Assembly: GCF_964355755.1 (NCBI RefSeq)
Contig: NC_092676.1
Location: forward strand, 4,570,288 to 4,634,287
Reading direction: 5' to 3'
DNA length: 64,000 bases
From: Antedon mediterranea
Lineage: Eukaryota; Echinodermata; Crinoidea; Comatulida; Antedonidae
The number at the start of each line of letters is the position of its first letter. The stretch's first letter is position 1. The notes under the pieces were generated by a model that was not told the origin of the DNA, did not search any database, and worked only from the letters and a program-made list of their open reading frames with translations. Positions 2,501-60,400 of the stretch are shown here, one piece after another. Both the position numbers and the translations under genes were made by a program.

Positions 2501-5308
<2,808 letters not shown>

Positions 5309-5789
5309 ATGTTTAAAAAAGATAGCTGTGAAGAAATCAATGTATCATTATCACTAATAAAAGAGATAAAAAAACTATTTCGAAATCCACCTATTTTTTC
5401 TTGCGCGTCGTGTTCATATTTCTATAGAACTTTTCAGGTTTCTTATCGAAATAAAAAATATGATTTAGAAGGTTAGGCTCTGTTTATTTAAGGGTTAGGT
5501 TAATGAAGAGTTTAGGTTTAGTGGATAGGCCTAAGTTAGTCATAGGCCCGATTGTCCGTAGTCCCGATCGTCTGAATCTGATAACCGTACATTATTATCA
5601 GGGCCTATAATAATTAATAGCACATACGTCATACATAAAATTTCCAATAACAAAACTACTGTAAATGAAGGTTAGACAATAATTAATAGAATTGTGACTG
5701 GTTTATGTTTTAATAATCACAGAGTTTTTTTTATAGTAAATAATAAAATTTACTGTCCCCGATGACAATAATTTTTAATCAGACAACGA

Positions 5790-5825
5790 ATTTCACTCGG
5801 TATAGTAGACGAGTAGAGAACACGA
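5790..5825 (+). other. possible non-coding 5' exon end of SULT gene 2
   Basis: A strong donor GTAAGTCTT (from 5826) follows a stretch (TTTCACTCGG ... GAG) that resembles the sequence before the GTAAGTCTT upstream of gene 4. Many SULT genes have untranslated first exons. No acceptor is clear before the ATG here, so this is a weak call. Confidence 0.22.
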
Positions 5826-5926
5826 GTAAGTCTTTAACGTCTTTTAAATAAATTAAACTAAATAGTAGTAGTAGCATAGACCTATAAATCTATATGTCCA
5901 TGGTAGTAGTAAGTACGGTATCCAAT

Positions 5927-8045
<2,119 letters not shown>

Positions 8046-8236
8046 ATGTTTAAAAAACATAACTGTGACGAATCAATAATATAAACTGCTGAACATTATA
8101 AATGATATTATGCCTCCGACATAAATAATAGTATGTAAGTAATAATGTATCTTTAGGCCTAGAACTTTCAGGTTGCTAACCGAATAACAAATATCATTTA
8201 GAAGGTTAGGCTCGAATTATTTAGTGGTTAGATTGA

Positions 8237-8415
8237 TTTAAAGGCCAGGTGCGGGCAAAAAATTTATATTGATCATACATTCCAATAATTATCGATCTAT
8301 AGTTTCTCCTATGTTTCATAATTTTTTAGATTTTATTTGTGTTACACGAGCTTGTTGAAAATAAGCATTTTCATATCAGTGGGGGGATAGTTCAAATTAC
8401 ACAGTAAAATCTCTA
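8237..8415 (+). repeat. interspersed repeat R1 downstream of gene 2
   Basis: A block containing GCCAGGTGCGGGCAAAA and a run around ATTATCGATCTATAGTTTC recurs in inverted orientation in intron 3 of genes 5 and 6 (22958-23193 and 38949-39163). No coding capacity. Class unknown. Confidence 0.6.
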
Positions 8416-8822
8416 TTCTTTTGTACACACATTTTGTAAATAGAGAGGCATTTTAAAAAGCTATGAAAAATAAATGGTGTGGTAAACAAGAAGAAGAAAA
8501 AGATAAGGAGTTGTGAACATATGGTAGCCAATCGTCGGTATTGACCAAAGTTTACAATGAAATTGCCCTATGTTTTAACAATCATAGTGGTAAATATTCG
8601 GCAATTCATTTGCAACTCTTAGAAATGTACAGACACGTAGGCCCTATCGCTCGACGTACGCTCATACAGGGAAGAAGGTATGAGTTATTCACGATCGAGT
8701 TTACGAATTTTTAAAATTTACGAATAACCTTTGTACTGTGGGACACGTATTTGGAGGATTTTCAGAGATGAGGTGAGGGTGTTGGGCATATCGGGGATGG
8801 GGGTTCGCAGTCGGTTATGAGG

Positions 8823-8941
8823 GGTTCGCCCGAACCAGGCTACGGGCCCGATACTCAGACATCGAATTTTCATTCGGTATAATACACCGAATGAAAATTC
8901 GATGTTTGAGTATCAGGCCCGTAGCCTGGTTCAGGCGAACC
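8823..8941. repeat. near-perfect inverted repeat (arms about 58 bp)
   Basis: Two arms containing ACCAGGCTACGGGCC and CGAATTTTCATTCGG face each other around a centre of a few bases, with about four mismatches. Part of an arm resembles sequence upstream of gene 2 (around 5780). It is probably a foldback element or an inverted duplication. Confidence 0.7.
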
Positions 8942-9102
8942 CGAATGAAAATGTGATGTCTGATTAAAAATTATGGAAATCTTGGAGAGTACATTTTATT
9001 TTCATCTGAAAAATAAATACGTATGTCTGGTCCCTGGATGTAACATTGGTTGATACGATTCGTACAAAGTACACCGCCAGACAACAGCGTACCTATTGTT
9101 TA

Positions 9103-9782
9103 GATCACTGATACTACCATTGTAGGTCTAATCAATGATGACAGTGATGAGTCTAATTATCGCAACCAAGTTAAACGAGTTGTAGACTGGTGTAACGAAA
9201 ACAATCTGTTCTTGAATGTATCTAAGACCAAAGAAATGGTTGTTGACTTCCGTAAATCACTTAATGTCAAATATCCAATATTTATTAATGGTATATCAGT
9301 TGAGTTTGTAGAAGAATTTAAATTCTTGGGTATTTATATTTCAAATGATCTGAAGTGGCATATTAACACACGTAACATTATTAGAAAGGCCCAAAGAAGA
9401 ATCTACTTCCTACGTAGACTTAAATCATTTGGTATAAACTCTGAAATAATGTCGTCCTTCTATAGGTCAGTTATAGAGAGTGTAATAACGTATTCTTTAA
9501 CGGTATGGTTCGGTAGCGCTACCGAAAATGAAAAGCGTGACCTAAATAGAATAGTCAAGACCGCATCGCGTATAATTGGATCTACACAACTGCCTTTGGA
9601 GAACATATTTTCGGATCGTCTTCTGAAAAAGGCAGTGGCTATCAAAGATGATCATTTTCATCCGGCCTCTAGTATGTTCCAGTTGATGCGCAGTGGTCGG
9701 CGATTTCGTTCTATTAAGGCCAATAAGGCACGATTTACAAATAGTTTCTTTCCAGGATCTATTAGAGCCTTAAATATGATGT

Positions 9783-15966: not shown

Positions 15967-17902
<1,936 letters not shown>

Positions 17903-19494
17903 TGAATAAAAAGAAAACAAACAAAATTGATATATTATTATATGTAATAGTGGAAACTACCGTATGAACACTCTGCTGTAGGAACAAGGCAAGTGAGTTA
18001 ACCAATCACAGGACAGTTCCGATCCATCGCGTCGTTATTGATTAAATTGCTTTAGCGCTTACGTCCTTGCATTGGATGGAAACCAAGCTTTAAGCTACGT
18101 TTTTAGCCCAAGAAGATTTGTGAGTGCGTAACATTAAGAATTTGCAAATACTCCTTTTTTCTTTATGCGGTTCGATATTGAAACTAATATAAATTGATTC
18201 AGAAATGAATATTAATAGCAAAATGGTTACTGGCAGGCCTACGGTTCAACCAATAACAAGGTTTACTGTACTTTACGGCTGGGATGCAGTAATATTTTTT
18301 GTTCTACTTCTGAAGTTATAGCGGCATGAAAAACGTCACGCATTCTTCCTTACACAAAGAGTAAAACATTGACCGGAAAATTGTACTGGACGGTTTTAAA
18401 CTAATCCTACAGTACAGAAAACCCGCAGAAGGGAGAGTAAGGTTGGTGGTGGAAGAACAGCCGCCCTAATTTATTACAATCAGGGCCTATAATAATGAAT
18501 ATCAATAATTCATCCATGATATCACATTCGTCATGCAAGATGGTCGACAAAGTAGAGTAACAGTAAAAATTTCAAAATAAAATTTAGAATTTTGAGTAGA
18601 TCCTTTCAATTACGTAAAATAAATAATAATGTATAGTAGGCCTAAATAATAACGTATTATTAGTAAAGTTAACCCTTACAACGAAAATATGGTGAATTTC
18701 ACTCGGTGAATGGTCTTTCAAATGGAATAAAAATAATATCAAGTGACTTACTTCCACTATTAATCTTGCTATTATTTTAGCTTTCACACCAGTCACACCC
18801 AATTTCACTTATATTTCAAGTTTCCTGAACTTTCTGCATTCTCACTCCTGAGGACGATCAAATTATATTGATCGAAACGTCGAGAACAGTTCTTTTCAGA
18901 ACTATAATGTAGGCCTTCGTAGTGTACCGCAAACTGTATGTCAAAATATCAACGTCTATGTATGTATACAGATCAGGCCCTGCAGAAGATGCAACATGGT
19001 GCAACAAGTTATTCTTATATTATCAGCCTAGTAGGCCTAGGTTTGCTCAATTTAGTCCACAATTATCTAATTTAAGTAAATAAAATAGAACATGGTGATT
19101 TTATAAACATAATGTTTTATCAACTTGCAGAAATACAACAAGAAAATAAAGAAATAACAAAACAAATGACGTAATGCCCATGACCAATCCATGGTCTATT
19201 TTTAGGATAACAAAAGAAATGCAATGTACGATCGATAGTTCAACACTATTTTTCGTCTCTTTATGAACGAATGTCTACTGTTGAAAATAATACAACATTA
19301 CATTTTATTGAAAATTTTATTATGCATCAAAATGTCAATGAGTTTGTTAAGCCTTTTGAATGATACTTTACTAGTGTGTCAAAAATCGTACGATTGAAGC
19401 AGGGAGGTGTCAATTCCATGATTGAAACATCGTTATCATCATCGTCGTCGTCGTTGTCATCATCATCATCATCATTATAATAGCAAATTGTTCA
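17903..19494. other. intergenic DNA between gene 4 and the minisatellite
   Basis: No gene is seen. At about 18840-18890 a hairpin-forming stretch (GGACGATCAA ... TTGATCGAAACGTC) resembles repeat-borne motifs. A CAT/CGT trinucleotide run lies at 19434-19480. The region is duplicated at 29550-31095. Confidence 0.6.
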
Positions 19495-19496
19495 GT

Positions 19497-20690
19497 TTGT
19501 TTGTTTATTGAGTTTCTTTGTTTGTTGAGTTTGTTTGCTTGTTTGTTTGTTTATTTGTTGTATTTGCTTGGTTGTTTGTTGAGTTTGCTTGGTTTTATTT
19601 ATTTGTTTTTATTTTTTATTTATTCGACTTCTCACTAACTCAGTTAGTGAAGGATCTGGACCAACAGATGGTAAACACATCTAAAGGGTCTTTCACACTA
19701 ATTGTTCCGGTCCTCCGGCGCCGGCAAATCCAATCGAACGTCAATGTTTTGTTTTTACGCGCATATCGATTGGCGCATAGCCGCGTAGAGCATCGTGAAA
19801 ACGAAACATTGGCGTTCGATTCGCCGGACCGGAACCGTGTCGGAACAGGTGTGAAAGACCCTTAAAACGGTCCAGTCCCAATTTGCACAGTGGCTGTGTT
19901 TGTTTGTTGAGCTTGCTTGGTTGTTTGTTGAGTTTGCATGGTTGTTTGTTGAGTTTGCTTTGTTGTTTGTTGAGTTTGCTTGGTTGTTTGTTTGTTGAGT
20001 TTGATTGCTTGTTTGTTGAGTTTGCTTGGTTGTTTGTTGAATTTGCATGGTTGTTTGTTGAGTTTGCTTGGTTGTTTGTTTGTTGAGTTTGATTGCTTGT
20101 TTGTTGAGTTTGCTTGGTTGTTTGTTTATTGAGTTTGCTTGGTTGGTTGTTTGTTGAGTTTGCTTGGTTGTTTGTTGAGTTTGCTTGTTTGTTTGTTGAG
20201 TTGCTTGGTTGTTGGTTGAGTTTGCTTGGTTGTTTGTTTGTTGTGTTTGCTTGTTTGTTTGTTGAGCTTGCTTGGTTGTTTGCTGAGTTTGCTTGGTTGT
20301 TTGTTGAGTTTGCTTGGTTGTTTGTTGAGTTTGCTTGCTTGGTTGTTTGTTGAGTTGCTTGGTTGTTTTTTGTTGAGTTTGCTTGGTTGTTTGTTTGTTG
20401 AGTTTGCTTGTTTGTTTGTTGAGTTTGCTTGCTTGTTTGTTTGTTGAGCTTGCTTGGTTGTTTGTTTGTTGAGTTTGCTTGGTTGTTTGTTTGTTTGTTG
20501 AGTTTGCTTGCTTGTTTGTTTGTTGAGTTTGCTTGATTGTTTGTTAAGTTTGCTTGGTTGTTTGATTGTTTGTTGGTTTGTTAAGTTTGCTTGTTTGTAT
20601 GTTTGTTGAGTTTGCCCGGTTGTTTGTTGAGTTTGATTGGTTGTTTGTTTATTTGTTTCGTTTGTTTGTTTGTTGAATGTGAACTTGTGT
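19497..20690 (+). repeat. minisatellite array, copy A (about 21-bp unit)
   Basis: Tandem TTTGCTTGGTTGTTTGTTGAG units with 4-bp (TTTG) expansions and small variants. The unit is seven codons, so several frames on both strands stay open by chance; these are not genes. It is interrupted at 19618-19880 by unique sequence with a small TIR element. Confidence 0.9.
19684..19863. mobile_element. small TIR element inside minisatellite, long version
   Basis: Ends AAGGGTCTTTCACAC and its exact complement. The inner part is itself partly palindromic (CGAACGTCAATG ... CATTGGCGTTCG). The duplicate at 31261-31326 has the same ends but lacks about 115 bp of the inside. Confidence 0.65.
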
Positions 20691-25616: not shown

Positions 25617-26332
25617 ATGACCAAGTAGGCCTACGATCGTATTGTTGATGGTATACGATATCCATTGGCAATAAAGGATGAAATTCTTGAGGCGGTGAAA
25701 ACGTTTGAAGTTCGAGAAGATGACGTGTGGCTCATAACATATCGAAAATCAGGTAGGCCTATAAATAAATAACAAGAATAGTAATTAATCTATACAATTT
25801 GACTAAAGAGGTTTACATCCGGGGTTCTCCTCCTCCCCTTCCACAGTTTTGATTGGTGGTGGAGGAAGTTGTTGTGTTACTGCTTAGTGGTTGGCCTACT
25901 ATAAACGTTTCGTGCACACTGATTGCAGTTGCTCATATGTTTCAGTTTTTTATGAAACTTATTCTGGAGATGTTTGCAATCACATCCTTAGCTTGAAGTA
26001 ACTATCTTTATAACTACAGTACATTCATGCCAGCCATTATTGTTATCTGTATGCCAAATTTAGAAATACGGGTGTTAATCTTCCTTTCTATTGCAACCGA
26101 TGTAGGTACTACATGGGCACAAGAAATTCTTATTTTCCTCTCTTGTGGTTGTGATCTCGCCAAAAGAGATAAAATAGACATCACAGAGCGTATCAGTTTT
26201 CTAGATTTATTGAAACCCGGTATGACGGAATTTGCTCATGTAACGGCAGCTAAGAAACCATCGCCACGAATAATGGAAACCCATATGCAAAGCCGTCACA
26301 TGCCAAGAGAAATCATCACAAAGAAGCCAAAG
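25617..26332 (+). pseudogene. SULT gene 4B, broken duplicate of gene 4
   Basis: Only exons 1 (25617-25752) and 2 (26106-26332) remain. Exon 1 is six bases longer than in gene 4: GGCCTA is inserted after codon 3, giving Met-Thr-Lys-stop. Exon 2 is intact and nearly identical to that of gene 4. Exons 3 to 6 are missing: sequence matching 16799-17945 is absent and a Helitron sits at the junction. The gene cannot make a sulfotransferase. Its high identity to gene 4 shows that it died recently. Confidence 0.9.
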
Positions 26333-29549: not shown

Positions 29550-31095
29550 TAGTGGAAACTACCGTATGAACACTCTACTGTAGGAACAAGGCAAGTGAGT
29601 TAACCAATCACAGGACAGTTCCGATCCATCGCGTCGTTATTGATTAAATTGCTTTCGCGCTTACATCCTTGCATTGGATGGAAACCAAGCTTTAAGCTAC
29701 GTTTTTAGCCCAAGAAGATTTGTGAGTGCGTAAAATTAAAAATTTGCAAAAACTCCTTTTTTCTTTATGCGGTTCAATATTGAAACTAATATAAATTGAT
29801 TCAGAAATGAATAGCAAAATGGTTACTGGCAGGCCTACGGTTCAACCAATAACAAAGTTTACTGTACTTTACGGCTGGGATGCAGTAATATTTTTTTTTC
29901 TACTTCTGAAGTTATAGCGGCATGCAAAACGTCATGCATTCTTCCTTGTACAAAGAGTATAACATTGACCGGGAAATTGTACTGGACGGTTTTAAACTAA
30001 TCCTACAGTACAGAAAACCCGCAGAAGGGAGAGTAAGGGTGGTGGTGGAAGAACCGCCCTAATTTATTACAATCAGGGCCTATAATAATGAATATCAATA
30101 ATTCATCCATGATATCACATTCGTCATGCAAGATGGTCGACAAAGTAGAGTAAAAGTAAAAATTTCAAAATAAAATTTAGAATTTTGAGTAGATCCTTTC
30201 CATTACGTAAAATAAATAATAATGTAGCCTATAGTAGGCCTAAATAATAACGTATTATTAGTAAAGTTAACCCTTACAACGAAAATATGGTGAATTTCAC
30301 TCGGTGAATGGTCTTTCAAATGGAATAAAAATAATATCAAGTGACTTACTTCAATCCATCCCACTATTAATCTTGTTATTTAGCTTTCACACCAGTCACA
30401 CCCAATTTCACTTATATTTCAAGTTTCCTGAACTTTCTGCATTCTCACTCCTAAGGACGATCAAAGTATATTGATCGAAACGTCGAGAACAGTTCTTTTC
30501 AGAACTATAATGTAGGCCTTATACGTAGTGTACCGCGAACTGTATGTCAAAATATCAACGTCTATGTATGTATACAGATCAGGCCCTGCAGAAGATGCAA
30601 CATGGTGCAACAAGTTATTCTTATAATTATTATCAGCCTAGTAGGCCTATGTTTGCTCAATTTAGTCCACAATTATCTAATTTAAGTAAATAAAATAGAA
30701 CATGGTGATTTTATAAACATAATGTGTTATCAACTTACAGAAATACAACAAGAAAATAAAGAAATAACAAAACAAATGACGTAATGCCCATGACCAATCC
30801 ATGGTCTATTTTTAGGATAACAAAAGAAATGCAATCTACGATCGATAGTTCAACACTATTTTTTGTCTCTTTATGAACGAATGTTTACTGTTGAAATAAT
30901 ACAAACATTACATTTTATTGAAAATTTTATTATGCATCAAAATGTCAATGAGTTTGTTAAGCCTTTTGAATGATACTAGTGTGTAAAAAATCGTACGATT
31001 GAAGCAGGGAGGTGTCAATTCCATGATTGAAACATCGTTACCATCATCGTCGTCGTCGTCATCATCATCATCATCATCATCATTATAATAACAAA
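29550..31095. other. intergenic DNA, duplicate of 17946-19495
   Basis: No gene is seen. It carries the same hairpin stretch (about 30450-30500) and the same trinucleotide run (31040-31083) as copy A. A 5-bp GCCTA insertion relative to copy A lies at about 30226. Confidence 0.7.
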
Positions 31096-32818
31096 TGTTT
31101 GTTGAGTTTGTTTGCTTGTTTGTTTGTTTATTTGTTGTATTTGCTTGGTTGTTTGTTGAGTTTGCTTGGTTTTATTTATTTATTCTTATTTTTTATTTAT
31201 TCGACTTCTCACTAACTCAGTTAGTGAAGGATCTGGACCAACAGGTGGTAAACACCTCTAAAGGGTCTTTCACACTTGTTCCGGCACGGTTCCGGTCCGG
31301 CGCCGGAACAGGTGTGAAAGACCCTTAAAACGGTCCAGTCCCAATTTGCACAGTGGCTGTGTGTGACAGTGGCTGTGTTTGTTTGTTGAGTTTGCTTGGT
31401 TGTTTGTTGAGTTTGCATGTTTGTTTGTTGAGTTTGCTTGGTTGTTTGTTTGTTGAGTTTGTTTGTTTGTTTGTTGAGTTTGCTTGTTTGTTTGTTGAGT
31501 TTGCATGGTTGTTTGTTGAGTTTGCTTGGTTGTTTGTTGAGTTTGCTTGCTTGTTTGTTTGTTGAGTTTGCTTGCTTGTTTGTTTGTTGAGTTTGCTTGT
31601 TTGTTTGTTGAGCTTGCTTGGTTGTTTGTTGAGTTTGCTTGGTTGTTTGTTTGTTGAGTTTGCTTGCTTGGTTGTTTGTTGAGTTTGCTTGGTTGTTTGT
31701 TGAGTTTGCTTGGTTGTTTGTTTGTTGAGTTTGCTTGCTTGGTTGTTTGTTGAGTTTGCTTGTTTGTTTGTTGAGTTTGCTTGCTTGGTTGTTTGTTGAG
31801 TTTGCTTGTTTGTTTGTTGAGTTTGCTAGCTTGGTTGTTTGTTTGTTGAGTCTGCTTGCTTGTTTGCTTGTTGAGCTTACTTGGTTGTTTGTTGAGTTTG
31901 CTTGGTTGTTTGTTGAGTTTGCTTGGTTGGTTGTTTGTTGAGTTTGCTTGGTTGTTTGTTGAGTTTGCTTGTTTGTTTGTTTGTTGAGTTTGCTTGGTTG
32001 TTTGTTTGTTGAGTTTGCTTGGTTGTTTGTTTGTTGAGTTTGTTTGCTTGTTTGTTGAGTTTGCTTGGTTGTTTGTTTGTTGAGTTTGCTTGCTTGGTTG
32101 TTTGTTGAGTTTGCTTGGTTGTTTGTTGAGTTTGCTTGGTTGTTTGTTTGTTGAGTTTGCTTACTTGGTTGTTTGCTGAGTTTGCTTGGTTGTTTGTTGA
32201 GTTTGCTTGGTTGGTTGTTTGTTGACTTTGCTTGGTTGTTTGTTGAGTTTGCTTGTTTGTTTGTTTGTTGAGTTTGCTTGGTTGTTTGTTTGTTGAGTTT
32301 GCTTGGTTGTTTGTTTGTTGAGTTTGTTTGCTTGTTTGTTGAGTTTGCTTGGTAGTTTGTTTGTTGAGTTTGCTTGGTTGTTTGTTTGTTGAGTTTGCTT
32401 GCTTGTTTGTTTGTTGAGCTTGCTTGGTTGTTTGTTGAGTTGCTTGGTTGGTTGTTTGTTGAGTTTGCTTGGTTGTTTGCTTGTTTGTTTGTTGAGTTTG
32501 CTTGGTTGTTTGTTTGTTGAGTTTGCTTGGTTGTTTGTTTGTTGAGTTTGCTTGCTTGTTTGTTGTTGAGTTTGCCTGTTTGCTTGTTGAGTTTGCTTGG
32601 TTGCTTGTTTATTGTGCTTGGAGGCTTGCTTGTTTGTTGAGTTTGCTTGATTGTTTGTTAAGTTTGCTTGGTTGTTTTCTTGTTTGTTGAGTGTGCTTGG
32701 TTGTTTGATTGTTTGTTGGTTTGTTAAGTTTGCTTGTTTGTATGTTTGTTGAGTTTGCTCGGTTGTTGGTTGAGTTTGATTGGTTGTTTGTTTATTTGTT
32801 TCGTTTGTTTGTTAGTTG
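31096..32818 (+). repeat. minisatellite array, copy B (about 21-bp unit)
   Basis: Same unit as copy A but about 0.5 kb longer, with more 4-bp expansions. A distinctive variant (TTTATTGTGCTTGGAGG, about 32609-32625) marks the part that is also found inverted at 36695-36945. Confidence 0.9.
31261..31326. mobile_element. small TIR element, short version
   Basis: Same ends as 19684-19863 (AAGGGTCTTTCACAC and complement), with only about 36 bp between them. Confidence 0.6.
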
Positions 32819-32838
32819 AATGTGAACTTGTGTATAAC

Positions 32839-35800
32839 AGTTTCAGTTTCAGTTTTTCAGTTTTTATTTTCCAATAATAAACAAGGATCATGAATATATA
32901 GCAAAAATGGAAGGATGACCAAAAAAGAGCAAAGCTCGAACAGTATTTGGCCACCTTAACAAAATAATTAATACATGATACAAACATAATTGAAACACAG
33001 GACGAGACAATACTAGCTAAACATGTTGGCATATGAACTCAAAGATAGTGCGATAAAATCAAAAAAGCAAAAGAACAATGTACATGTAAACATATTTGTA
33101 ACACTCATTGATAAGTTAAGAGCAAATTATTTTTATACAACTTTTTAAATACTTTGACAGATGATGAATTACGAATAGAAGCATCAATACTGTTCCATAA
33201 AATTGGACCATGTCCTCTGATAGTGTTTCTACCCATATCGGTAACAAAATTATAAGGACGATAAGTATCAAAGGACCTGATGCCATAATTATGAACTGAG
33301 TTTACTTTAACAAAATAATTAGAAAAGTTAGCTGGTAATAAATTATTCTTAAATTTGTACATGAAAACACCTTTTGATATCTTATGAATATCATACACAG
33401 TTAAGTTGTTAAGACTAGCAAATAATGGTGGTGAATGCGCAAGGAATTGAAAATTTGTGCATAAACGCATTATGCGCTTTTGTTTGCGATAAACAGTTTC
33501 AAGGCGACAGTTATTGTGGTCAGCCTAAATCAAGCTGCAGTATTGAATATGAGGAAGGACTAGAGTCTTGTATAAGGATGATAGAACATTGACATGTAAA
33601 ATTGGTTTTAGCCTAAAAAGAATACCAGAATATTTTGAAACTAAGTTTGCAATATGGATTGTATGTTGATTCCAGGTTAAGCATTCGTCCATTATTACAC
33701 CAAGAAATTTACAACTAGTTACACGAGAGATGTTATTATTATCAATGAAAATGTTAAGATATAGTCGAGATAGTCGAGAGATCGGAATTAACATTATCAA
33801 CTAGACGGTTTAAAACATTATCTGAAATTAAAAGGTTAGTGTCATCTGCATATAAAATAAGATTGGAATGTTTACAGATGTTTGCTAAATCATTAATGTA
33901 AATAATAAAGAGTAGCGGGCCTAAAATTGAGCCCTGTAGAACACCACAACAAATGTTTAAAGAAGAAGAACTATGATAATTAAAAGAGATATATTGCTTT
34001 CTATCCGTCAGGTAACTTCTGAACCAATCAAAGGCAACACCACGTATACCATAATGCTGTAGTTTCGACAGGAGAATGTCGTGATTGACGGTGTCAAAGG
34101 CCTTTGAAAGGTCCAGAAATATCCCAAGAACATGCTTTTTCTTATCTAATTCAGAGATTATGTTATCATATGCTTGTAGAACAGCCATTTCAGTAGACAT
34201 ATTTGGGCGGAAACCAAATTGGTTCTCTTGCAATAAGTTAAATCGAGAAAAATAATTATAGAGTCTTTTATGAATTATACGTTCTAAAACTTTGGAGAAA
34301 ACGGGCAGTACCGAGATGGGCCTATAATTGCTAAATTTATCAGTCTCACCATGTTTAAAGACGGGAATTATCTTGGCAATTTTCAGCTTCTCCGGGACAA
34401 TACCGGTAGCTAGTGATAAATAAAAAATATGAACAAGTGGAGATGCTATTAATTCCCCAACAGATTTAATAATATCTGGTTTAATGTCATCGAAACCGCT
34501 GCTAGCACCAGATTTCAGATTTCTGAATATTGTGAGTACTTCATCTTTATCAGTTGGTCAAAAAAACAGAGAGCTAACGGGTGATTTTATGTTATTTATA
34601 AAATAATCAAAAGTAATATCAGATTGAGGAATTTTACGTAGGTATTCAGGACCAATGTTGACAAAGTAATTATTAAAGTTATCAGCAATAATTTGAGAAT
34701 CAGATATATGTATATCATTTATTTAAAAAAATGATGATATGTGTTTATTGTTTTGTCTACCCATAATGTTATTGAGAACATTCCAAGTCTGTTTTGAATT
34801 AAATTTTGTTTCCTCAAGCTTTTCAGCATAATACTGCTGTTTAGTAGGGTTACTTGCATACTTTTTGTATAATTTATCTTTTCGAGTTATTGATTTTAGG
34901 ATCGCCGAAGTAATCCAAGGTTTTTGAGGAATACAACGACGCCGGGAATTGTTGTTGGAATGTTTAGAGATGGGAAAATGTACATTGTAGACCTCTGTGA
35001 ATTTATCGATGAAAACATTATATGCATGTTCAGAAGAATCAAGATCAGTAATACAACTCCAATCAACCAAGCTTAAATTTTCAAAAAAGTGTTGAATTCT
35101 AGTTTGGTTAAATAAACTAGTGGAAATTCTATTCGCGGTATTTGCGTTGCTAATTGGAGTTGATTTAGTGATTTGGTAAACAGGATAATAATCAGAAACA
35201 TCGGCAATAACAACACTCGATTTTATATAATGAGTAAAAACGTTAGTGATAATGTGATTGTCATTAGAATGTAGAAGGTCAAGATTAAAATCACCGGATA
35301 TATAACATTGTTTTTCTTCAGTATTAATTTTTGTGAGACAATTTGTAAGATCATAAAAAAATGTTTCAATATTGGTACGATGAGCACGATAGATATTGCC
35401 AACGACAATGTTTTTCCTACCGGGAACTGTTATTTCAATAAAGATAGATTCAGAATGATCAAAGTGCTCAGACGGTTTGTCAATTAATTTTAAATCATTC
35501 CGAATTCGAAATGAGATTGTATTATGAACATAGATAGCAACACCACCACTTCTTCTTCCACAGCGTGGTGTATTAACCAAGTTATAGTTATCTATGTGGA
35601 TTAAATTGGAACCATCCTCTTTAAACCAGGTTTCTGATAAAGCTAGAATCGAAAAGGTATGCCTTAAACTAGTGAGGAACGTGCTAATCAGATCAACGTT
35701 TTTATTGAAACTTCGTGGATTTATATGTAAGATGGAAAAGTCCTTTTCACATGTAGCTGAGATGTTATGATCAAAGGTATAAGAACATGAATGTTGTATG

Positions 35801-36478
35801 TCATAATCAATTAAATTATTAGAGTTATTTATCACATCGTTAAAGACAAATGGATTAAATTTCAGATTTAACATTCTATTATATTCAAGGGTATTATTAA
35901 GACTGAATAAAGCAAATTTAAATTCATCGTCGTCAATGTAATGGTTGAAAGGAAAGACATTTCCAGTACATTGAAAACAAAACCAGTCTTCATTAGCATT
36001 AACATCGGTATAAATACAATGTGTATGGTAAAAAGAGTTACAAATATTACAAACAATCGTTGACTGATGACTTCTAATGTCTTTTGAACAGCAATTACAA
36101 TAGTTAGTCATTTATTTGAATAATATATAATGGAATGTAATAGGTCATTAAATATAACGCATAATGAAATATATATGTAAAAAAAAAGAGTACCATGCCA
36201 ACATATAAAATATTATACACACTTAAACACATATACTTATCTAGGCAGAAAGTGAAAAACGAAGAGGACAAGAACAATGTGTTACTGGGGAAAGGTCCAT
36301 ATGATGTTTGAATTTAACGTGTGGACAGATAGAAAGATCAATGAAATCTCATACTACTTGCATTTTAAAAATTTATGAAATAATTAATTAATGTAAGAAT
36401 GGAAATACAAACAATTTACAGTTTCTCACTCCATAAAGTACTGCCGGCATTTGCATAGTTCAATAAATAAAGGAAACC
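32839..36478 (-). mobile_element. near full-length LINE (CR1/L2-like) inserted in the duplication copy B
   Basis: Copy A keeps the empty site: GTATAAC runs directly into TGATGTGG at 20691-20700. Here GTATAAC is followed by the LINE, which ends on its other side in CCAAC before TGATGTGG. A 3-bp AAC target duplication is possible. On the minus strand the element starts with about 370 bp of leader, then the ORF, and ends in ACTGAA-type short repeats. It is 3.6 kb long. It is younger than the duplication. Confidence 0.85.
33105..36111 (-). pseudogene. LINE ORF: PHD-like zinc finger, endonuclease, reverse transcriptase
   Basis: The first part (36111-34723, 462 codons) begins with a Cys/His zinc finger (CNCC ... 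CNIC ... HTHC ... CFQC) of PHD type, then an apurinic-type endonuclease (HINPRSFNKN, LSETWFKEDG, SGGVAIYVHN, SGDFNLD). The second part (34233-33754) is the RT with FLDLSKAFDTVNHDIL, GVLQGSILGPLLFIIYINDL and the catalytic YADDT. The third (33800-33105) is the RT thumb and C-terminus. The frame is broken between 34723 and 34233 (homopolymer runs near 34727 and 34555) and again near 33780, so this copy is inactive but young. The fused PHD-endonuclease-RT layout is known in CR1-type LINEs. Confidence 0.85.
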
Positions 36479-36689: not shown

Positions 36690-36950
36690 CTACTTAACAA
36701 ACAATCAAGCAAACTCAACAAACAAGCAAGCCTCCAAGCACAATAAACAAGCAACCAAGCAAACTCAACAAGCAAACAGGCAAACTCAACAACAAACAAG
36801 CAAGCAAACTCAACAACAAACAACCAAGCAAACTCAACAACAAACAAGCAAGCAAACTCAACAAACAACCAAGCAAACTCAACAAACAACCAAGCAAACT
36901 CAACAAACAACCAAGTAAGCTCAACAAGCAAGCAGACTCAACAAACATGG
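36690..36950 (-). repeat. inverted block of the minisatellite
   Basis: This is the reverse complement of the 3' part of the array at about 32400-32661, including the unique variant with CTCCAAGCACAATAAA. In copy A the same site (20905-20943) holds about 35 bp of unrelated sequence. It was inserted in the copy B lineage. Confidence 0.8.
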
Positions 36951-37741: not shown

Positions 37742-41494
<3,753 letters not shown>

Positions 41495-43296: not shown

Positions 43297-46200
43297 ATGG
43301 AAATTGATCGTGTAGTTGGTGGAGTGCGCCATCCTTGGGTGACCTCCGATGAAATCCTGGAAGCGATGAATACATTTGAAGTTCGTCAAGACGATATCTG
43401 GGTGATTACATTTCCAAAAGCGGGTAAGAAATGTACAGTTTTTCAAGTAATTATTTAAAGAATTTAGAATATTTTGACCTTCATTTTTTGTGTTTCAAGG
43501 GACTTTATTTAAGCAATTAACACCAAATTTTGAGTTGGTTTACCACTGTAATGGCTAAATGTTGATTAGACTAAGGATGTGCCTTGTAAGGAGCCTCGGA
43601 GTGAAATATTGAATAAAAAAAATATAAAAAATGTTGATTTACAATGCCTTATTTTAGGAACTACATGGATGTCAGAAGTAATCTCATGTGTGTACCACCA
43701 AGGTGATTTTGACAAAGCTGATGAAATTGTATTAAACCAAAGATTTACGTTTTTGGATCTTGCAAGACCTGGAGCAGATCCACCTCATTTATTGGCAGCT
43801 AAAACACCTTCTCCGAGGTTTCTGAAGACCCACCTGCCAAGCCATCAGATGGCAAAGGAAATCAACACAAAGAAACCAAAGGTAACACATACCCTATCCA
43901 TGGAGGTATATTTACACCTGCCATGCCCTATCCACACACTACATAGGCAAGCATGCAAGAATTATAACACAGTAATGCAAATAATTGCATAACCCATTTT
44001 GTACATTTTCCGTTCATTATGATTTAAATTAAACTTATAGAAATATTCTTGTAAAAGAAATAATTTATATATTATTTTGATACAAAATAAATGTTACATC
44101 TAGTACCATGAATAATAAAAAAAATGTTTATGAGTTGGATGGTGCGGAATATTTCATGAGCTGAAAGATTAACTGCTATTACGGTGACGTTCACAGTTTT
44201 CCTTGTTCGTACAAAAAAGCTAATCGTATATATAATGTCAAAAGCATACAATAGTGCAGATTATTGCACGCCACATGAACCTCAATCATCCAATCAACTG
44301 ACAAGAATTTACTTACATGTGTAATATACTGAATAAAAATGAATGGATTTGAAGATACAGTAAATAACAAAATTGATTTTCTGTGTTCAGGATGCCAATA
44401 AAGTTTCGTTGAAAATTCTATTCATTTAATATTGACTGTTCTACTATATAGAGGAACTACTTAGAGGACACTTTCTTAGATCCTGGAAGTATAGGGGTTA
44501 TACTTTATAATAAACTAAGTTTTTCTTAAAATAATACTTGCCACATTCTGTATTTATATCTTTAATTTATTTATATTTCATCTATTTTTACTATAGATAG
44601 TATATGTTGGAAGAAACGCAAAGGACAACGCTGTGTCTCTCTTCCATTTCCACCAATCACTCAAGGCTTTAAGAAGCTATGACTCATGGGAAGACTATTA
44701 TAACGCATTTTGTGACGGCGATGGTAATAAATCATATTTATCGTTCTTTTTTATTATAATGAGACCCAGTCAATAAAGTCATAATAATTTCTCCTGGTTT
44801 AGAGTTGCTTCATTGTAATAGCCATAAAAAATTAATGTTTTTATTAGGACAGGTTATAAAGCTTATTTATATATATATTTATAATATTTATCATTAAAGA
44901 TGTATTGTCCCCCTGAAAAAATAATTCTTAACATTTGTTGAATATGACATTAATGTCGCATAATAATAGTTTGACACAAAATTCGATTGAAGAAAAATGT
45001 TTATTTACCTGAAGTAAAAAAAACTTTAATTGAAAGTAAAAAATAGTCAATTGGCTGCTAGCCAATAGGTTTTATTTTGTCATTTTATAAGTGAAAACAT
45101 TAATTTTTTCTTTTTTTTTATGGAAGTGTTAACTTTATTAAAACTACAAAATAACGTATTTTATTTAATGAATCTTCATTTTTCATGTTTTTGGTAGACA
45201 ATACATCTTTAATGTTATTCCGGACCAAAAACCTTAAATAATAATAATGAAGAAACATATTTTTTTTTAAAACATTATTGGTCACTCTTCATAATAAATA
45301 TTGTTTGCACAGATGACAAACGTCTTAAATTTAAAACAAATATAATACAATACCTGAAGATTTTATAAAAAATTGGTCAACCTATAGATGGCGCTATAGT
45401 TCAAACAAAATCAGAGCCATATATTGAATTTCGACATGTGTTCAATATATGGCGGTGTGCGCTTCATGCATGTTCTACGCCTGCGCGTTAAGTTTGTACA
45501 GTAATTCTCTATAGTAATGCATTGTTTTTACATTTTGTTGTTTAAAATCATGTTCGCAGTAACTTTATAATTTTATCATTATCCCAACAAAAACCTTTAA
45601 CAAATTGATTGTTTTGATAATAAATTCGATAGTTAAAGCCTTGTGAATGTTATACATTTTTTAAGCAAATGACTTGACTCCATACTCTACATAAGCATAG
45701 TTGGACACAAAAATGACCGGTGTGCACACCACGTGACTTTCTAAAATCCGTGAATGTATTGTCATAACTCTTTAAATATTATAGCTCTGAACAAAATTAT
45801 TTCCCCCATTTTGTTTCATTTTTAGTAAGTTGATTAGTCATCAGTAGAGCATAATGATAGCATGCACAATCACCATCATGTGTCCAAATCAATCATGAGA
45901 AATGCATCTTTAGCCAAAGACGAGAAATTACTAAAAATTAGCAATTACCACGAGACTTGCGACGTCTGACAACATTATTTGTTATTTATCGAAATATGTT
46001 TGACATAATGCACTTACCTAAAACATTTTGTTGTTAGTTCATGGTGGTTCATGGTTTGACATGAACCTTTATTGGTGGAATAGAAGAAATGATGACAATG
46101 TATTATTTGTCAAATACGAAGATATGAAAAAGGTAGGATTTTAGTTATTATATATGTATTTTATACACAGATGATCATTTTTTATTATTTTTTTAAAATT

Positions 46201-46737: not shown

Positions 46738-48620
46738 AGAGAAATATATTTATAATAATATTATAAAATATTATTATTAAAAATATAAATCGAGGCACTG
46801 CTTTTAGTTTATGTATTGATACTAGATCAAAATTTTATTTTGTTTAATTGTAACATAGAAACACTTGTATTATCCCTTGAAACACAACAAATAAAGGTCA
46901 AAATATTCTAAATTTAAATTGGCCATATCAAAGTAATATTAAAGTTATTCACTTTAAGTCGAAAATTCGAGCCAAAAACAACAAGTTTACGTAATTAACA
47001 GGTAAATTAATTTGATTACATTTCGTCTGGAAAATTGTCGGGAGCGAAAGTAACCAAAGATTTCAAACCACGAGTATGCATTATTCATGATGCTAATTAG
47101 GATTGTTTACAACTCGTCACGGTTGAGAAGGTATTTTCACACAGATCGCGAGGAAGTTTTATGATTATGCATACAGAGTAGCCAAACAAGCGCGTTGCAT
47201 TATGAGATATGTTTTGATCGAAAACTTTGACTTTGAACAAAAAAACGTCTGTATTTCAGTTAAATTATTTTTTTTTGCGACTAATTTTTGGTGAAAGTTA
47301 ATAACTATTAAAATACTTCAAAATGACCCACTTTTTTTCAAAATATTTTATTTTTTATTTTTTTGGAATTAGTCGAAAGGGACAATACATCTTTAAATAA
47401 GATTTAGATAATAAATATGTAATAAGGTTTCCGTTTTAAAAATACCTCAATTTTACAATTCCTTGATTTTTTAATATGGTAACCCATTGTCTTACCTCTT
47501 CCAGAAAAAAAAGTATATGTTATATAATTTATATTTTATATACATTTTGTCACAAATAGCATGTCATAACTGTACTTAATATTATAATAAGCCTCTGTTT
47601 ACATTGTTTTTCATGGAAATTCTGTTTTATTTTATATACAGCGTCATTTGAACATTTAATGTTTTAGTCTAGGTTCTGCTAGCTAGACAGCAAATAAATA
47701 TTCATTAAAAAAAAGAAAAACATTTTGGCACACATGGCGTGTCATAACTGTACTTAAACTGGAATCAAACTGTAAGAAAATCTTCCACTGGACAATCGGA
47801 ATAATCTGATAAATGAATAACCAAAAAAAATATAATAATGAGAGATGCAATGCTATACTAGTTTTAGAGAATTTATGTCAAATTGTCTTATATTGGAAAT
47901 ATACTGTAATATATTTCATTTTATTCTTTTCAAATAAATGAATTGAAATATAGTACTTGTATAAAGTGTATGTTTTAGTGTCACTAAATATATAGGCTTA
48001 ATTTTAATTGTTAAGGTATATATTATTCATTGTAAGTATTGTATTACTTGTTGATATAAAGTTTGCATGTTTTAGTGTCAAATAAATGTAATAATAGCTC
48101 AAATTAAATTTTTAAAGTATATCATTCATTGTAAGTGTTGTATTACTTGTTGATATAAAGTTTGCAGTACACCACGTATGTAGTTCTGAAAAGGAAACTG
48201 GAGAATATAAATGAAATTGGATGGGATATGCTAAAACAAAGGTAGGAGGGGATTGAAATTAGCTCATAGAAGAGCATAGTTTCCTAAGAACTTTCTTTGT
48301 ATGTGTGTATTCATAGTCTTAGCAGAAAATTTCACTCTTCCCTGGTCCTATCAATATAAATGTCCACTTTTAAATAGCTATATACCAACAGACAATGATA
48401 CCTAATGTTTTTTTTTGATGACGTCAACAAAATTTATTTTTTTGTAGCTTGGTTAGCTGAAATGAAATCTCAGTCTTGCCAATAGTACACTATTTTGCTG
48501 ATTTTCCAGCAGGTGAATTTATTCGCACGAACTGACTTTGTTGTGACGACGTGCGTGACGTATTCATATTATCAAAGATAGTATGTATGGCGTTCATTTT
48601 TTCGGAAATAAAGATATCTT
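46738..48620. other. intergenic DNA between gene 7 and LINE C
   Basis: AT-rich with no gene. A MITE family 2 end (GGACAATACATCTTTAA) is at about 47380-47397. A stretch is repeated at about 47955-48070 and 48075-48175 (GTATTACTTGTTGATATAAAG occurs in both). Confidence 0.5.
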
Positions 48621-50998
48621 AGTTTTAGTATGACTGTAGTAGCTGTCTTTCCAACTATTTGTTACGCAAACAAACAATATTTTTACGCTAAAACTAACGT
48701 CGAGGCTATTAATGAAGGTATTGGGAACATCACTTGGGAATCCATTGAATGTGAATCGGTTAATGGAGTATGGTCTAATTTTATTACCAAATTTATGGAA
48801 TGTGTGAATTTACATATCCCACATAGAAATCAACGCCGAAAGACCAAGCCCTGGATTTTCCCCGAAATTAAAAAAATGGCAGTCAAAAAGAGAAAATTGT
48901 TTAACCGCGCTAGACAAGTGGAAACATTAATGACTGGACTGCTTATAAAAAACTGCGTAATAAAATAAGATATGTCACAAATCGTTCCCACAGTAAATAT
49001 ATTGATGAATTAATGGGAAAAGCTGATAATATGAAGCAATTCTGGCAGTATGTCCAGTCTAAACGGAAGTCTGCAAATTGTTCTTCATTTGTGATTAATG
49101 ATACAATGTGCTCCGATCCAAGGACAATTGCGAACGCGTTTAATTCACTATTCGAATCTTATTTTACCCAGAATGACCCATTAACAGATGAATCTACATC
49201 ACCCAGACTAGAGGTTACTACTCTAGCAAACATTATTGTCCATTCCATTGTTGTTTTCAGGAAGATCATGAAACTCTCTTTGGGCAAAGCTGCCGGGCCC
49301 GATGGCATTACATCTCAAATGTTAAAACTCTGTGCCAAAGGTTTATCGCCATTACTTGCCGATGTTTTTAACTTCAGTTTGGAAAGTGGTGAACTTCCTT
49401 CGGCATGGAAATGTGCAAACATCGCACCAGTCCATAAGAAGCTCAGCAAGACGAACCTATGCAACTATAGACCAATTGCACTGACATCTTTGTTCTCAAA
49501 GGTGCTCGAGAGTATTGTCACCGATGAACTCCGTCTTCATCTGAACGAATTTGGACTCATGTTTGATGGCCAATATGGTTTTACTCCAGGAAAATCTTGT
49601 TCCTCAGTTTTGGCTGAGGCTACAACATCCTGGGTTAAGGCTTTAGATAATGGGGCACCACGGATTGATGTCGTGGCTCTTGATTACAGTAGGGCATTTG
49701 ATTCCATCTCGCATGACAATCTGGTGAATAAGCTTTCAAAAACGTATGGTGTTGGCGGTGTATTATTAAAATGGATTAACTCTTTCTTATCTGGTCGTAA
49801 GCAAAGAGTAATTTTTAATGGTGTCCAATCTGACTGGTGTTTAGTCAAGTCAGGTGTCCCCCAGGGGTCAGTCTTGGGGCCATTATTGTTCAACATTTAC
49901 GTGAATGACTTAAATCTTCACTTGGAAAGTAAACCGTACCAATATGCTGACGATACATTTATTAGTAAAGCAGTTTATTCTTATTGTGATTTTATTTCCT
50001 TACAGAGAGACATTAACAAAATCTCTGAATGGTCTATTTTAAACAAACTTATTTTAAACCCTACTAAATGTAACATCTTGTCTATCGATAGAAGGAGAGC
50101 TCCATCTTCTAATGACTATGTACTTAACGATCAGGTTATTGCACATTGCACATCTGAAAATTCTTGGTGTGTACATATCCGATGATTTGTCATGGTCTAA
50201 ACAAGTCCATGAGGTTGTAAATAAGTGTAATAGAACACTGGGTCTTGTTAGAGCAATTGCTGGTGGTTGTTCTACGGGCCGTTCTTTTAAAATTATACCA
50301 GTGTCTAGTCCTCCCTCATATACAGTACTGTTGCGAGGTGTGGTACCCTTATCGCATATGTCAAATTTAAATGATTGAGCAAATCCAGAGACGGGCCACC
50401 CGGTTGATCTTACATCAACGTCGTCAGGAAGAGTCATATGATGGGAGACTAGACACTCTTGATATCCCATCCACAATCGCTATTAGAGATTGTTATACTG
50501 TTCTATTTGTTTGCAATGTTTTACTTTATCATCAAAGATCTATTATTTATAATTTACTCATAGTTAATAATCGTCATGATACTCTCACTTTCAAGCATCT
50601 TCGCTCCAGTAATGATATGTCAAAATTTTGCATCCCGACCAGATTCACTAGAACTTGGAATTCCATACCCAATGAGATTCGTGATATTTTTGTTAATGGT
50701 TCTTTTATTAATTTTAAATTATCTCTAAAGCTATATTTTAAATGTCGGAGAGAAACTTTTTAAATTTTTAAATGAAATGATATGTCTACTATATTTGTAT
50801 ATTTGTATATATTCTTGTTATTTGTTATTTATGTATTGGAGAGACACACCTTACCGGTGACAGCGTTTGTTTAATGCTTTTTTCTTTCCTCGGCCTCGTG
50901 TCTTGTTTTTTATATATATATATATATATTTTTATGTTTTTTTTGTAATTATTATTATTTTATGTTTATTGCCGAAATGAATAAAATAAAAATATAAT
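48620..50998 (+). pseudogene. 5'-truncated LINE with reverse transcriptase (jockey/CR1-like)
   Basis: Pieces of one ORF in three frames: 48630-48968 (end of endonuclease and linker), 49013-50185 (RT), and 50371-50763 (C-terminus), with frame breaks near 48965, about 50130 and 50375. RT motifs: GKAAGPDGI, NYRPIALTSLFSKVLE, VALDYSRAFDSISHD, SGVPQGSVLGPLLFNIYVNDL and the catalytic YADDT. The 3' end has an (AT)n run (50914-50929) and an AATAAAATAAAAATATA tail. It is a dead copy; the family differs from the LINE at 32839-36478. Confidence 0.82.
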
Positions 50999-51744: not shown

Positions 51745-54391
<2,647 letters not shown>

Positions 54392-56390: not shown

Positions 56391-56860
56391 GTTCTTTTAT
56401 TTGCACGGCGGCCGGACCATGAACCACATAATATTTTATTAGATACCAGCAACTAATTAACATGAAAGCCGGTTGATCTCCATTTGTGATTATGCTCTAT
56501 TGAACAAAGTATCTCTAGTTAATCTCAGTTGTTCTTTTTATTTGCACGGTGGCCGGACCGTGAAACACATAATATTTTATTAGAGACCAGTAAGTAGGCT
56601 AATTAACAGCCGGAATTGATCCTCACTTGTGATTAAATGTTCTAATGAACATTGTGTCTATTTAATCTTGTTCAGGACCCAAGTGGAAACAAGGAAACTT
56701 GTCTTGGCTATCCTTGTGATCAAGGTCTTTGCAAAATGTTTCCATTTCAGTTTTATTTTGATATTTATGTACAGTATTCTAATTGACCTCGAGAAACTCA
56801 AAACTCAAACTTTTTATTTGCACGGCGGCTGGACCGTGAAACGTATAATATTTTATTAAA
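56391..56860. repeat. repeat block with GCACGGCGGCCGGACC units, upstream of gene 9
   Basis: A unit of about 130-260 bp (TTTATTTGCACGGCGGC, ...CATAATATTTTATTAGA) occurs three times here (about 56397, 56538, 56811). The middle part, including GGAAACTTGTCTTGGCTATC, resembles LINE 3' ends. The block recurs at 58938-59290 in intron 2 of gene 9. Confidence 0.6.
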
Positions 56861-57483: not shown

Positions 57484-60400
57484 ATGTCATCAGAAACAAA
57501 CAAAGAACATGCAGAGATTGATCGTGTTGTTGGTGGTGTCAGACATCCTTGGGGTACTTCAGATAAACTCTTAGAGGCAATGAAAACATTCAAAGTTCGT
57601 CAAGATGATATTTGGGTTATCACATTTCCAAAGGCTGGTAAGTGAAAAAGACACGATGCATTACATAACAACAAAACTATAATTCTACTGTACAACAATA
57701 CGAATGATACCGAGTGGTTGGTTTGCCTAGGCATCCGTACATTCAATCACAACTTTTCCATTCTTATTGTCCTTGCGTCCTGCCTCGCTTTCAGTCTCGA
57801 ACACACTTCACTGCAAGTCTTTATTCCATAATTACACAGTCCCATATCCACTGTCCAGAAAGCCTACCATCTCCGACTTGTACCGTCTCGATAGTGTGTC
57901 CTTCCCTTGTATCGCACACCCAACACAGCTTTCCATCACAACGCTCCCTTCTGATTCGTCTACTTGACCACCGGCGACTTGATTCATTTGCATGCGACAC
58001 CTGATTATCGTCACACGTAACACAACCCTGGAACTAGGTCAGGATTGAACCCTGGAACTAGGTCAGGATTGAACCCTGGAACTAGGTCAGGATTGAACCC
58101 TGGAACTAGGTCAGGATTGAACCCTGGACCTTGGGATTGGAAAGCAAGCACGTTAACCACCAAGCTACAGCTCCACTACATTTACATTTTTTCATGATTT
58201 ATTTTAGGCACCACGTGGATGCAGGAAATAATGTCAGTACTGTACCATGATTGTAATGTTGTGAAAGCAGACGAGAAGGCAATTGATGATCGCTTTGCTT
58301 TCCTAGATTTTGAAGACAAAAAATCAGATTCTCCCTACGTGTTAGCAGCCAAAAAACCTTCTCCACGATTTCTGAAGACTCATCTACCGAGTCACCAGAT
58401 GGCCAGTGAACTAACTAACAAGAAACCAAAGGTGGGCCTGGCTACGGATCTACCGTTTATCTTTCGTTAACAGGAAGGCATAATTCGTTTACAGGCCTCT
58501 TAAGTGTCATCCATGGTATACTGTTCATCTTCATATTAACACGTTTTTTGTATAATATTATATAGCCTATATGTATCTACAATTCAATTCAATAGCATTT
58601 CTTCAATAATGGTAAGACAAATAATACAAGAATAATAAACAATAAGAAACAGTAATACAATACAAAAACAAGAAAAGGTAAATAAAAGAAAGGAATGCCA
58701 TCATTGGTTGTGATGATTAGAAGAGTTAATTCATAAGAAAACATCTTGGATATTTAATGAGGTTATTTTTATCACAGTCTATTAGGCCTACTCGTTTTTC
58801 TTGAGTATATATGCTGATACTGTTATTTTGTTTGCTTCAATGTTTTCGAATGGTACGTGACCGGCGAGCGTGAGGCTTTGGGGAAGGGGATTGCTAGTAG
58901 ACCTAGGCCTAGTAAAGAGAACTTACATTACAAGTAATTAAGCCGGTTGATCCTCATTTGTGATTACGTTCTATTGAACAAAGTATCTCTAGTTAATCTC
59001 AGTTGAACTTTTTATTTGCACGGCGGCCGGACCGTGAAACACATAATAGAGACCAGTAAGTAATTAACAGCCGGAATTGATCCTCACCTGTGATTAAATG
59101 TTCTAATGAACATTGTGTCTATTTAATCTTGTTTAGGACCCAAGTGAAAACAAGGAAACTTGTCTTGGCTATCCTTGTGATCAAGGTCTGTTCCTTTGCG
59201 GAAATGTTTTCTATTTTTATATTAATTATGTGCAGTATTTTAATTGACCTTGATTATTTAATAAAGAAACTCAAAACTCAAACTAGTAAAGATAACTTAA
59301 ATAATTTCTTAAGAATATACCCTTTCTTTTAATAGATAGTGTATGTTTCAAGAAATCCGAAAGATAACGCCGTGTCTCTCTTTCACTTTCACCAGTCGCT
59401 TAGACTCTTGAAAACGTACGATTCTTGGGATGACTATTATAACGCATTTTGTGCTGGTGACGGTAACTTAAATTTCTTTTTTTTTGTGTGTGTGGGAAAT
59501 CGAATTCACTTTCTTCATACAGTATAACAAACTTAATTTTATTACATTCAATTTTTCAATATTATATTAAGCGTACTAACATTCTATTAAATAACTCTGT
59601 AATGTGTTTATAAAATTTCTTTCATAACAAGAAAAAAGTTAGTTTTGCTATGCCTCAATCTCAATATTTAGTATATTTATTTAAATAATGAAATATTTAA
59701 AAAAATCAATATTAGCCTAGTTACCGTATGAAACTTCTCATTGTTATATTAGTTCATGGTGGTTCGTGGTTTGACATGAACCTGTATTGGTGGAATAGAA
59801 GAAATGATGACAATGTATTATTTGTCAAATACGAAGATATGAAAAAGGTAATTACAGCATTCAAGATTCAAGATTCAAGAAATTTTATTTGTCCATAAAA
59901 ATGGAAATTCACTTTGCTTGGTAGATTAAAACAACAATATTGCAACAATTTAAAACGTGCAGTATTATAACAGATTAAAAATACAAGATAAAACGTTAAA
60001 AATACTGATAAAAATGTAAAACTATTTAAAAATTGCATTAACGTCTTACATTAGAATTAAAAATATGAATGCTATTTACAACGAAGGATTTTCTAGTTCT
60101 ACAAAGATTTGCTCTTGGAGGTCGTAGCCTAATACCTGATCTATTTAAGTTATAACAGTAATGTAACGGATGAGTGGGGTGTTTCATAATATTGTTTACT
60201 TTAAAAAAAATACTCTTTTCATTGATAAATGAACAAGGCGTTAGATCAGCTTTAATAATACGTTGTGCAATTTTACGTGGTCTATCAATTTTATTCTTAT
60301 CATTTTCAGTAAAGTTACCGTACCATAAAACCATCCAATGCTAAAAGATAAAATACTTTGAATAATACTTTGATAAAATAGAATTAAAATAGTGTTATCA

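Follow-up and report, generated by a model that had tools for sequence, protein, structure and literature searches.

Our analysis suggests that the palindromic octamer TAGGCCTA is probably the fossil excision scar of a cut-and-paste DNA transposon of the IS630-Tc1-mariner/pogo type, and that its 128,871 copies in the genome are apparently a countable record of past transposon jumps. The word arises by insertion at TA, with a specific set of cores and, in several cases, a known direction of change; the insertion rate seen between paralogs agrees with that implied by the genome as a whole, and pogo-type elements whose ends match the related CAG and CCG cores reside in the same genome. Excision scars are usually observed singly in the laboratory, whereas this genome allows them to be counted in the hundred thousands, and decay allows them to be dated. 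The earlier note on this stretch of DNA, which proposed the footprint of a TA-specific transposon or a micro-insertion process, was largely right in its main idea, and the scale is the striking part.

Insertions at TA among recent duplicates

The window, a stretch of 64,000 nucleotides (C7:4570288-4634287), encodes proteins that we read as those of a sulfotransferase gene cluster. Exon 1 of sulfotransferase gene 4 (15968..16096, + strand), delimited by translation and paralog comparison, carries an empty TA site: gene 4 reads AAG-TA-CGAT at approximately 15976-15984, and its partial copy 4B reads AAG-TAGGCCTA-CGAT from 25626, an exact insertion in the alignment (scar at 25626..25633; none of the scars is assigned a strand). 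The start of 4B consequently reads ATG ACC AAG TAG, with an in-frame stop at codon 4. The paralogs starting at 2512, 5938 and 11711 have TACGAT or TACGAC without GGCCTA, and so the insertion in 4B is derived and the bare TA ancestral. The reverse history, named in the earlier note as an outcome that would overturn its reading, is thereby excluded for 4B; six copies with an empty site exclude it for one LINE copy as well. The accompanying statement that the insertion had killed a gene goes too far, as 4B holds only exons 1-2 of a six-exon sulfotransferase, and the new stop therefore sits in a partial copy and not in a complete gene.

Two further differences point the same way: a putative TAGGCCTA scar in the duplicate of gene 5, where it lies in intron 4 (39489..39496; empty TA at approximately 23507), and a putative scar of the 5-bp variant TAGCCTA (30225..30231; empty TA in the duplicate at approximately 18634). 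These and the 4B case, the three named in the earlier note, all align as exact insertions into TA, as it had claimed, and they account for the majority of simple 5-6-bp indels among recent duplicates in the window. A second 5-bp variant, TAGGCTA, forms a scar within a repeat (56595..56601), with an empty TA in the repeat copy at approximately 59,000-59,150.

A single case, TACTTTA at 19364..19370 (empty TA at approximately 30974), is probably the scar of another family with ends AAG...CTT. Such ends are those of a common short element with AAGATGTATTGTCC termini, which fits this difference; the element lies at window positions 44897, 47393, 51692, 55496, 56877 and 61310 and at 1009-1517 of locus L071, where its site is a TA in 17 other copies. 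TAGGCCTA was also seen in or adjoining the 5′ splice sites of gene 4 at 16096 (CAG|GTAGGCCTA) and 17015 (GATC|GTAAGTAGGCCTA).

A wider class of TA-X-TA insertions

Two LINE families in the window served as references for private insertions: TE1 (33100..36150, − strand, with reverse-transcriptase frames; 18 further copies aligned) and TE2 (48600..50780, + strand, with a reverse-transcriptase frame; 20 further copies aligned). The alignment of 19 TE1 and 21 TE2 copies covers 59.3 kb and contains 926 differences from consensus. Nine of the ten private 5-6-bp insertions in these young copies, counting one 10-base row as two adjacent events, convert TA to TA-X-TA (chance approximately 1e-8), so that scars of this form constitute nearly all such insertions in the LINE copies examined. 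Five of the nine inserts X were CTG or CAG, and the other four were CGG, CCTG, GGCC and CATG. Separately, TAGGCTA at 33609-33615 is common to nearly all TE1 copies (L047-L049, L053-L061, L063), which suggests an old scar that the source copy had inherited and that was multiplied with it.

The same pattern was found between paralogs. We considered every TA-N3-TA and TA-N4-TA site in the sequence that was read, regardless of its core, excluding the satellite contig C18, which gave 136 core classes and 2,422 sites with a paralogous copy. The paralogous copy had an empty TA in 8/87 cases for CAG/CTG, 7/51 for GGCC, 3/30 for GGC/GCC and 2/25 for CCG/CGG; together these four classes gave 20 of 193, against 13 of 2,229 for the remaining cores (p = 9e-15), several of the 13 being secondary readings of events already counted. 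Slippage may account for four of the seven GGCC cases, which fall within chains or local repeats; when these four are set aside, the p value for GGCC by itself is 0.004. The TAGGCCTA insertion belongs to a wider class of TA-X-TA insertions.

Abundance, spacing and decay of the octamer

The window contains 44 copies of TAGGCCTA, where 0.43 are expected from dinucleotide composition, exceeding the earlier count by eye of at least 35 against roughly one. Across the 354-Mb genome (11 large contigs; contig C17, considered as a mitochondrion, was rejected as such on reading), the word occurs once per 2,750 bases, and the reversed word only 1,589 times. As the reversed word contains CpG and is a somewhat unfair control, other palindromic octamers were also compared: in an unbiased 142-kb sample TAGGCCTA occurred 68 times and 17 other palindromic octamers 0-6 times each, including TTGGCCAA (four), ATGGCCAT (three) and AAGGCCTT (one), which have the same composition. 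The words TACTGTA and TACAGTA are also overabundant, with 314,802 occurrences genome-wide against 119,155 for their reversed words; for the much larger mouse genome, just over 300,000 have been reported (PMC4378557).

A full-text literature search for TAGGCCTA returned no comparable genomic motif among the matches listed. HIP1-like palindromes are likewise palindromic octamers found at high density throughout a genome, but new sites here arise by six-base insertion at TA and not by substitution or selection.

Scars outside hotspots are close to independent: adjacent TAGGCCTA pairs in unbiased sequence number four against 0.84 expected, two of them from a single chain. Tandem chains of TAGGCC (for example TAGGCCTAGGCCTAGCCTAG) form hotspots near the start of C1, at 5264-9355 (L001-L009), 80140-80300 (L094) and 159200-159680 (L093), at densities far above the genome average; one lies within an inverted repeat of approximately 2 kb by the contig start. 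Slippage or repeated local hopping may be involved in these hotspots.

Between paralogs, GGCC and GCC scars arise at approximately one per 257 substitutions, a rough figure based on four events. A simple constant-birth model, fitted to the density of TAGGCCTA and to the excess of its one-mismatch relatives (75 seen, 37 expected, an excess such as decay predicts), implies one TAGGCCTA per approximately 267 substitutions genome-wide, accumulated over approximately 0.18 substitutions per site. The two rates agree, and insertion plus decay is therefore sufficient, with no need for selection, although approximately 300 kb of sequence was read in all and the event counts are small. By this means, scars alone would allow long-term rates of transposon movement to be estimated, including those of families whose elements are rare or lost.

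Excision as the candidate mechanism

Excision by Tc1/mariner transposases leaves the duplicated TA and a few bases of the element ends as a footprint (PMC3878927, PMC2170065, PMC7913693, PMC4378557), following cuts that produce 3′ overhangs of 2-3 bases (PMC3878927). The published size range of footprints is 0-4 bp (PMC9976928, PMC7913693), and the consensus scars of Sleeping Beauty are TACAGTA and TACTGTA (PMC4378557). The insertions described here are confined to TA, duplicate it and add 3-4 further bases, and transposases of the pogo/Tc1-mariner group are present in the genome.

Our data are consistent with a model in which an element of this group would insert at TA, duplicating it, and would later be excised by staggered cuts, the host rejoining the DNA so that both TAs and the last nucleotides of the element remain. 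Elements ending CAG...CTG would in this way yield TACAGTA or TACTGTA, those ending CCG...CGG would yield TACCGTA or TACGGTA, and a putative element ending 5′-GG(C)...(G)CC-3′ would yield TAGGCCTA, with TAGGCTA and TAGCCTA as minor products. The four-base core could be formed by filling in and joining 2-nt GG overhangs, giving GG+CC; alternatively, GGC overhangs could anneal through GC, which would lead to GGCC and, after mismatch repair, to smaller amounts of GGC or GCC. The predicted minor products GGC and GCC are observed. Annealing of CCG ends through GC would be expected to give CCGG (TACCGGTA), which is rare here, and the 2-base route is therefore somewhat favoured. Scars would build up neutrally while elements stay few, and would decay by point mutation. 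Where they fall within genes, they also give rise to stops and frameshifts.

The cores CAG/CTG and CCG/CGG match the ends of resident TA-duplicating elements. The genome has 47 matches to the DDE_1 (pogo-type) transposase, several with intact frames, and eight to DDE_3. One pogo-type element, at C3:10566350-10569105, has matching ends CAGTAGAACCTCCATTTTACGTAC (CAGTAGAACCTCC), a TA duplication and a 550-residue frame; a second is represented by three copies, 98-99.7% alike, whose GACTG|TA ends are set in different flanks; and a third element, near C1:36,290-37,230, is 939 bp long, has CCGTAAAACCTC termini and is flanked by a duplicated TA. Ends of the CAGTNRAACYTCNAT type number 285 against four in the control, some of them in one tandem array on C4. 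The four DDE_3 frames at L084-L087 (on C5, C1, C2 and C8) are intact or near-intact and each different, and are possibly domesticated genes; three of the four loci read (L084-L086) had no detectable terminal inverted repeats, and L087 had none that were convincing.

The proposal of a TA-specific transposon is thus supported by the insertion at TA, the shape of the footprint and the CAG and CCG parallels, but its remaining component, a full element with GGCC-like termini flanked by TA, was not found by the searches that the earlier note had suggested. No GG(C)-ended element was present in approximately 250 kb of sequence or at the transposase loci read, a search that a low-copy family could escape. 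Searches for inverted repeats that are flanked by TA and end in GG, GGC, CC or GCC, and for words recurring after TAGGC, yielded only satellites, palindromes and local repeats. We therefore infer the source of TAGGCCTA itself by analogy, and the GGCC scar points to a putative TA-specific element with GG ends. Several further observations count against excision: scars are more numerous than recognisable elements by orders of magnitude; their flanks show only a mild preference for G at −1, without the palindromic AT preference of Sleeping Beauty and ZB; tandem TAGGCC chains are present in some hotspots; and the rarity of TACCGGTA is at odds with the GC-annealing route for CCG ends.

Comparison with known systems

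Sleeping Beauty and Frog Prince (Tc1/mariner) offer a close parallel, with a TA target that is duplicated, three terminal bases kept and a net gain of 5 bp; their words TACAGTA and TACTGTA are those found here in excess and among the private insertions. In contrast, the resident CAG-ended elements of this genome are pogo-type, and profile searches with PF01498 (Tc1-type transposase) and PF01359, neither of which detected its controls, gave no match. The GGCC core also differs in having four bases, and would derive from another family. The footprint of Caenorhabditis elegans Tc1, TACATGTA, has a four-base palindromic core to which each end contributes two bases, an arrangement that TAGGCCTA would share if left by GG...CC ends, and one CATG insertion, as with a Tc1-type core, was seen in a LINE copy; however, the core of TAGGCCTA is different, and no Tc1 element was found here. 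Pogo elements of the Passer/Tigger type share the DDE_1 transposase, the TA duplication and CAG termini (CAGTARAACCTC), and Passer leaves footprints of 0-4 bp (PMC9976928), but the searches here found none of the pogo type that ends in GG(C).

This genome is rich in young PIF/Harbinger and ISL2EU elements (at least 150 matches), and the inverted repeats of ISL2EU mostly start with GG (PMC4482050). The target duplications of these elements are TWA for Harbinger and AT for ISL2EU (PMC4482050), and not TA. The empty sites here, by contrast, are TA in contexts such as GTAC and ATAC, and a site like AAG-TA-CGAT matches neither target. ISL2EU, considered on account of its GG ends, was dropped as a source for its AT target (PMC4482050). 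Excision of the piggyBac type has a TTAA target and precise repair, whereas the sites here are TA and repair is imprecise. Telomere-type TTAGGC arrays, tried as GGCTTAGGC... repeats, gave no match as a source.

Alternative explanations

We consider it rather unlikely that TAGGCCTA was written either by a TA-specific micro-insertion machinery that works independently of any resident transposon or through the programmed loss of elements confined to the germline, in which case it would represent a major genome-wide mutation class. Under the former, itself unlikely, a 2-nt staggered break at TA would be filled in, duplicating TA, and preferred nucleotides (GGCC, CTG and others) would be added during end joining. 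This would accommodate the failure to find a GG-ended element, the excess of scars over elements and flanks with no preference beyond TA. However, only a few cores are allowed, two of the three classes are the termini of resident TA-duplicating elements, and inserts of 3-4 bases plus TA have the size known for excision footprints.

Growth of the microsatellite type, with TAGGCC units spread by replication slippage, is very unlikely as a general account. Slippage possibly plays a role in the TAGGCC chains, as indicated by the hotspots close to the beginning of C1, which contain TAGGCCTAGGCCTA chains, and by some chain-length differences among copies. For single sites it is contradicted by insertions at a unique TA with no pre-existing unit; chains are rare in unbiased sequence, as the pair counts above indicate, and insertions of CTG, CGG and CATG are left unexplained.

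Selection could in principle maintain TAGGCCTA as a protein-binding or chromatin motif, as has been proposed for some overabundant palindromes, and its very high density and perfect palindromy would suit such a role. We regard this as highly improbable, as sites arise by exact 6-bp insertion, once creating a stop codon, and the insertion rate with neutral decay accounts for the density, the one-mismatch excess included.

No more probable is programmed elimination, in which the body DNA that was sequenced would have lost germline-only, TA-bounded elements and the scars would be rejoined sites comparable to those of the internal eliminated sequences of ciliates. Common scars, the rarity of matching elements in the assembly and the TA boundaries all agree with this account, but pogo-type CAG- and CCG-ended elements are still in the assembly. 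Moreover, ciliate elimination at TA boundaries leaves a single TA, whereas the scars here are imprecise and one interrupts a reading frame.

Finally, deletion of six bases from an ancestral TAGGCCTA can practically be dismissed, for although the direction of change is not fixed in the gene 5 and TAGCCTA cases, it is contradicted wherever an outgroup exists, by the other gene 4 paralogs and by the majority of LINE copies at each private insertion.

Other repeats of the window

Minisatellite arrays with a 21/25-base unit (TTGTTTGTTGAGTTTGCTTGG) lie at 19900-20690, 31376-32830 and 36690-36947, at the edges of recent gene duplications. An element with CAAAGAACTTATAACACAAGAATC inverted ends occurs at 39685-40932 and 51916-52334, with approximately 470 first-look candidates genome-wide; the 40 that were scored are mostly 95-97% alike, which argues for recent activity.
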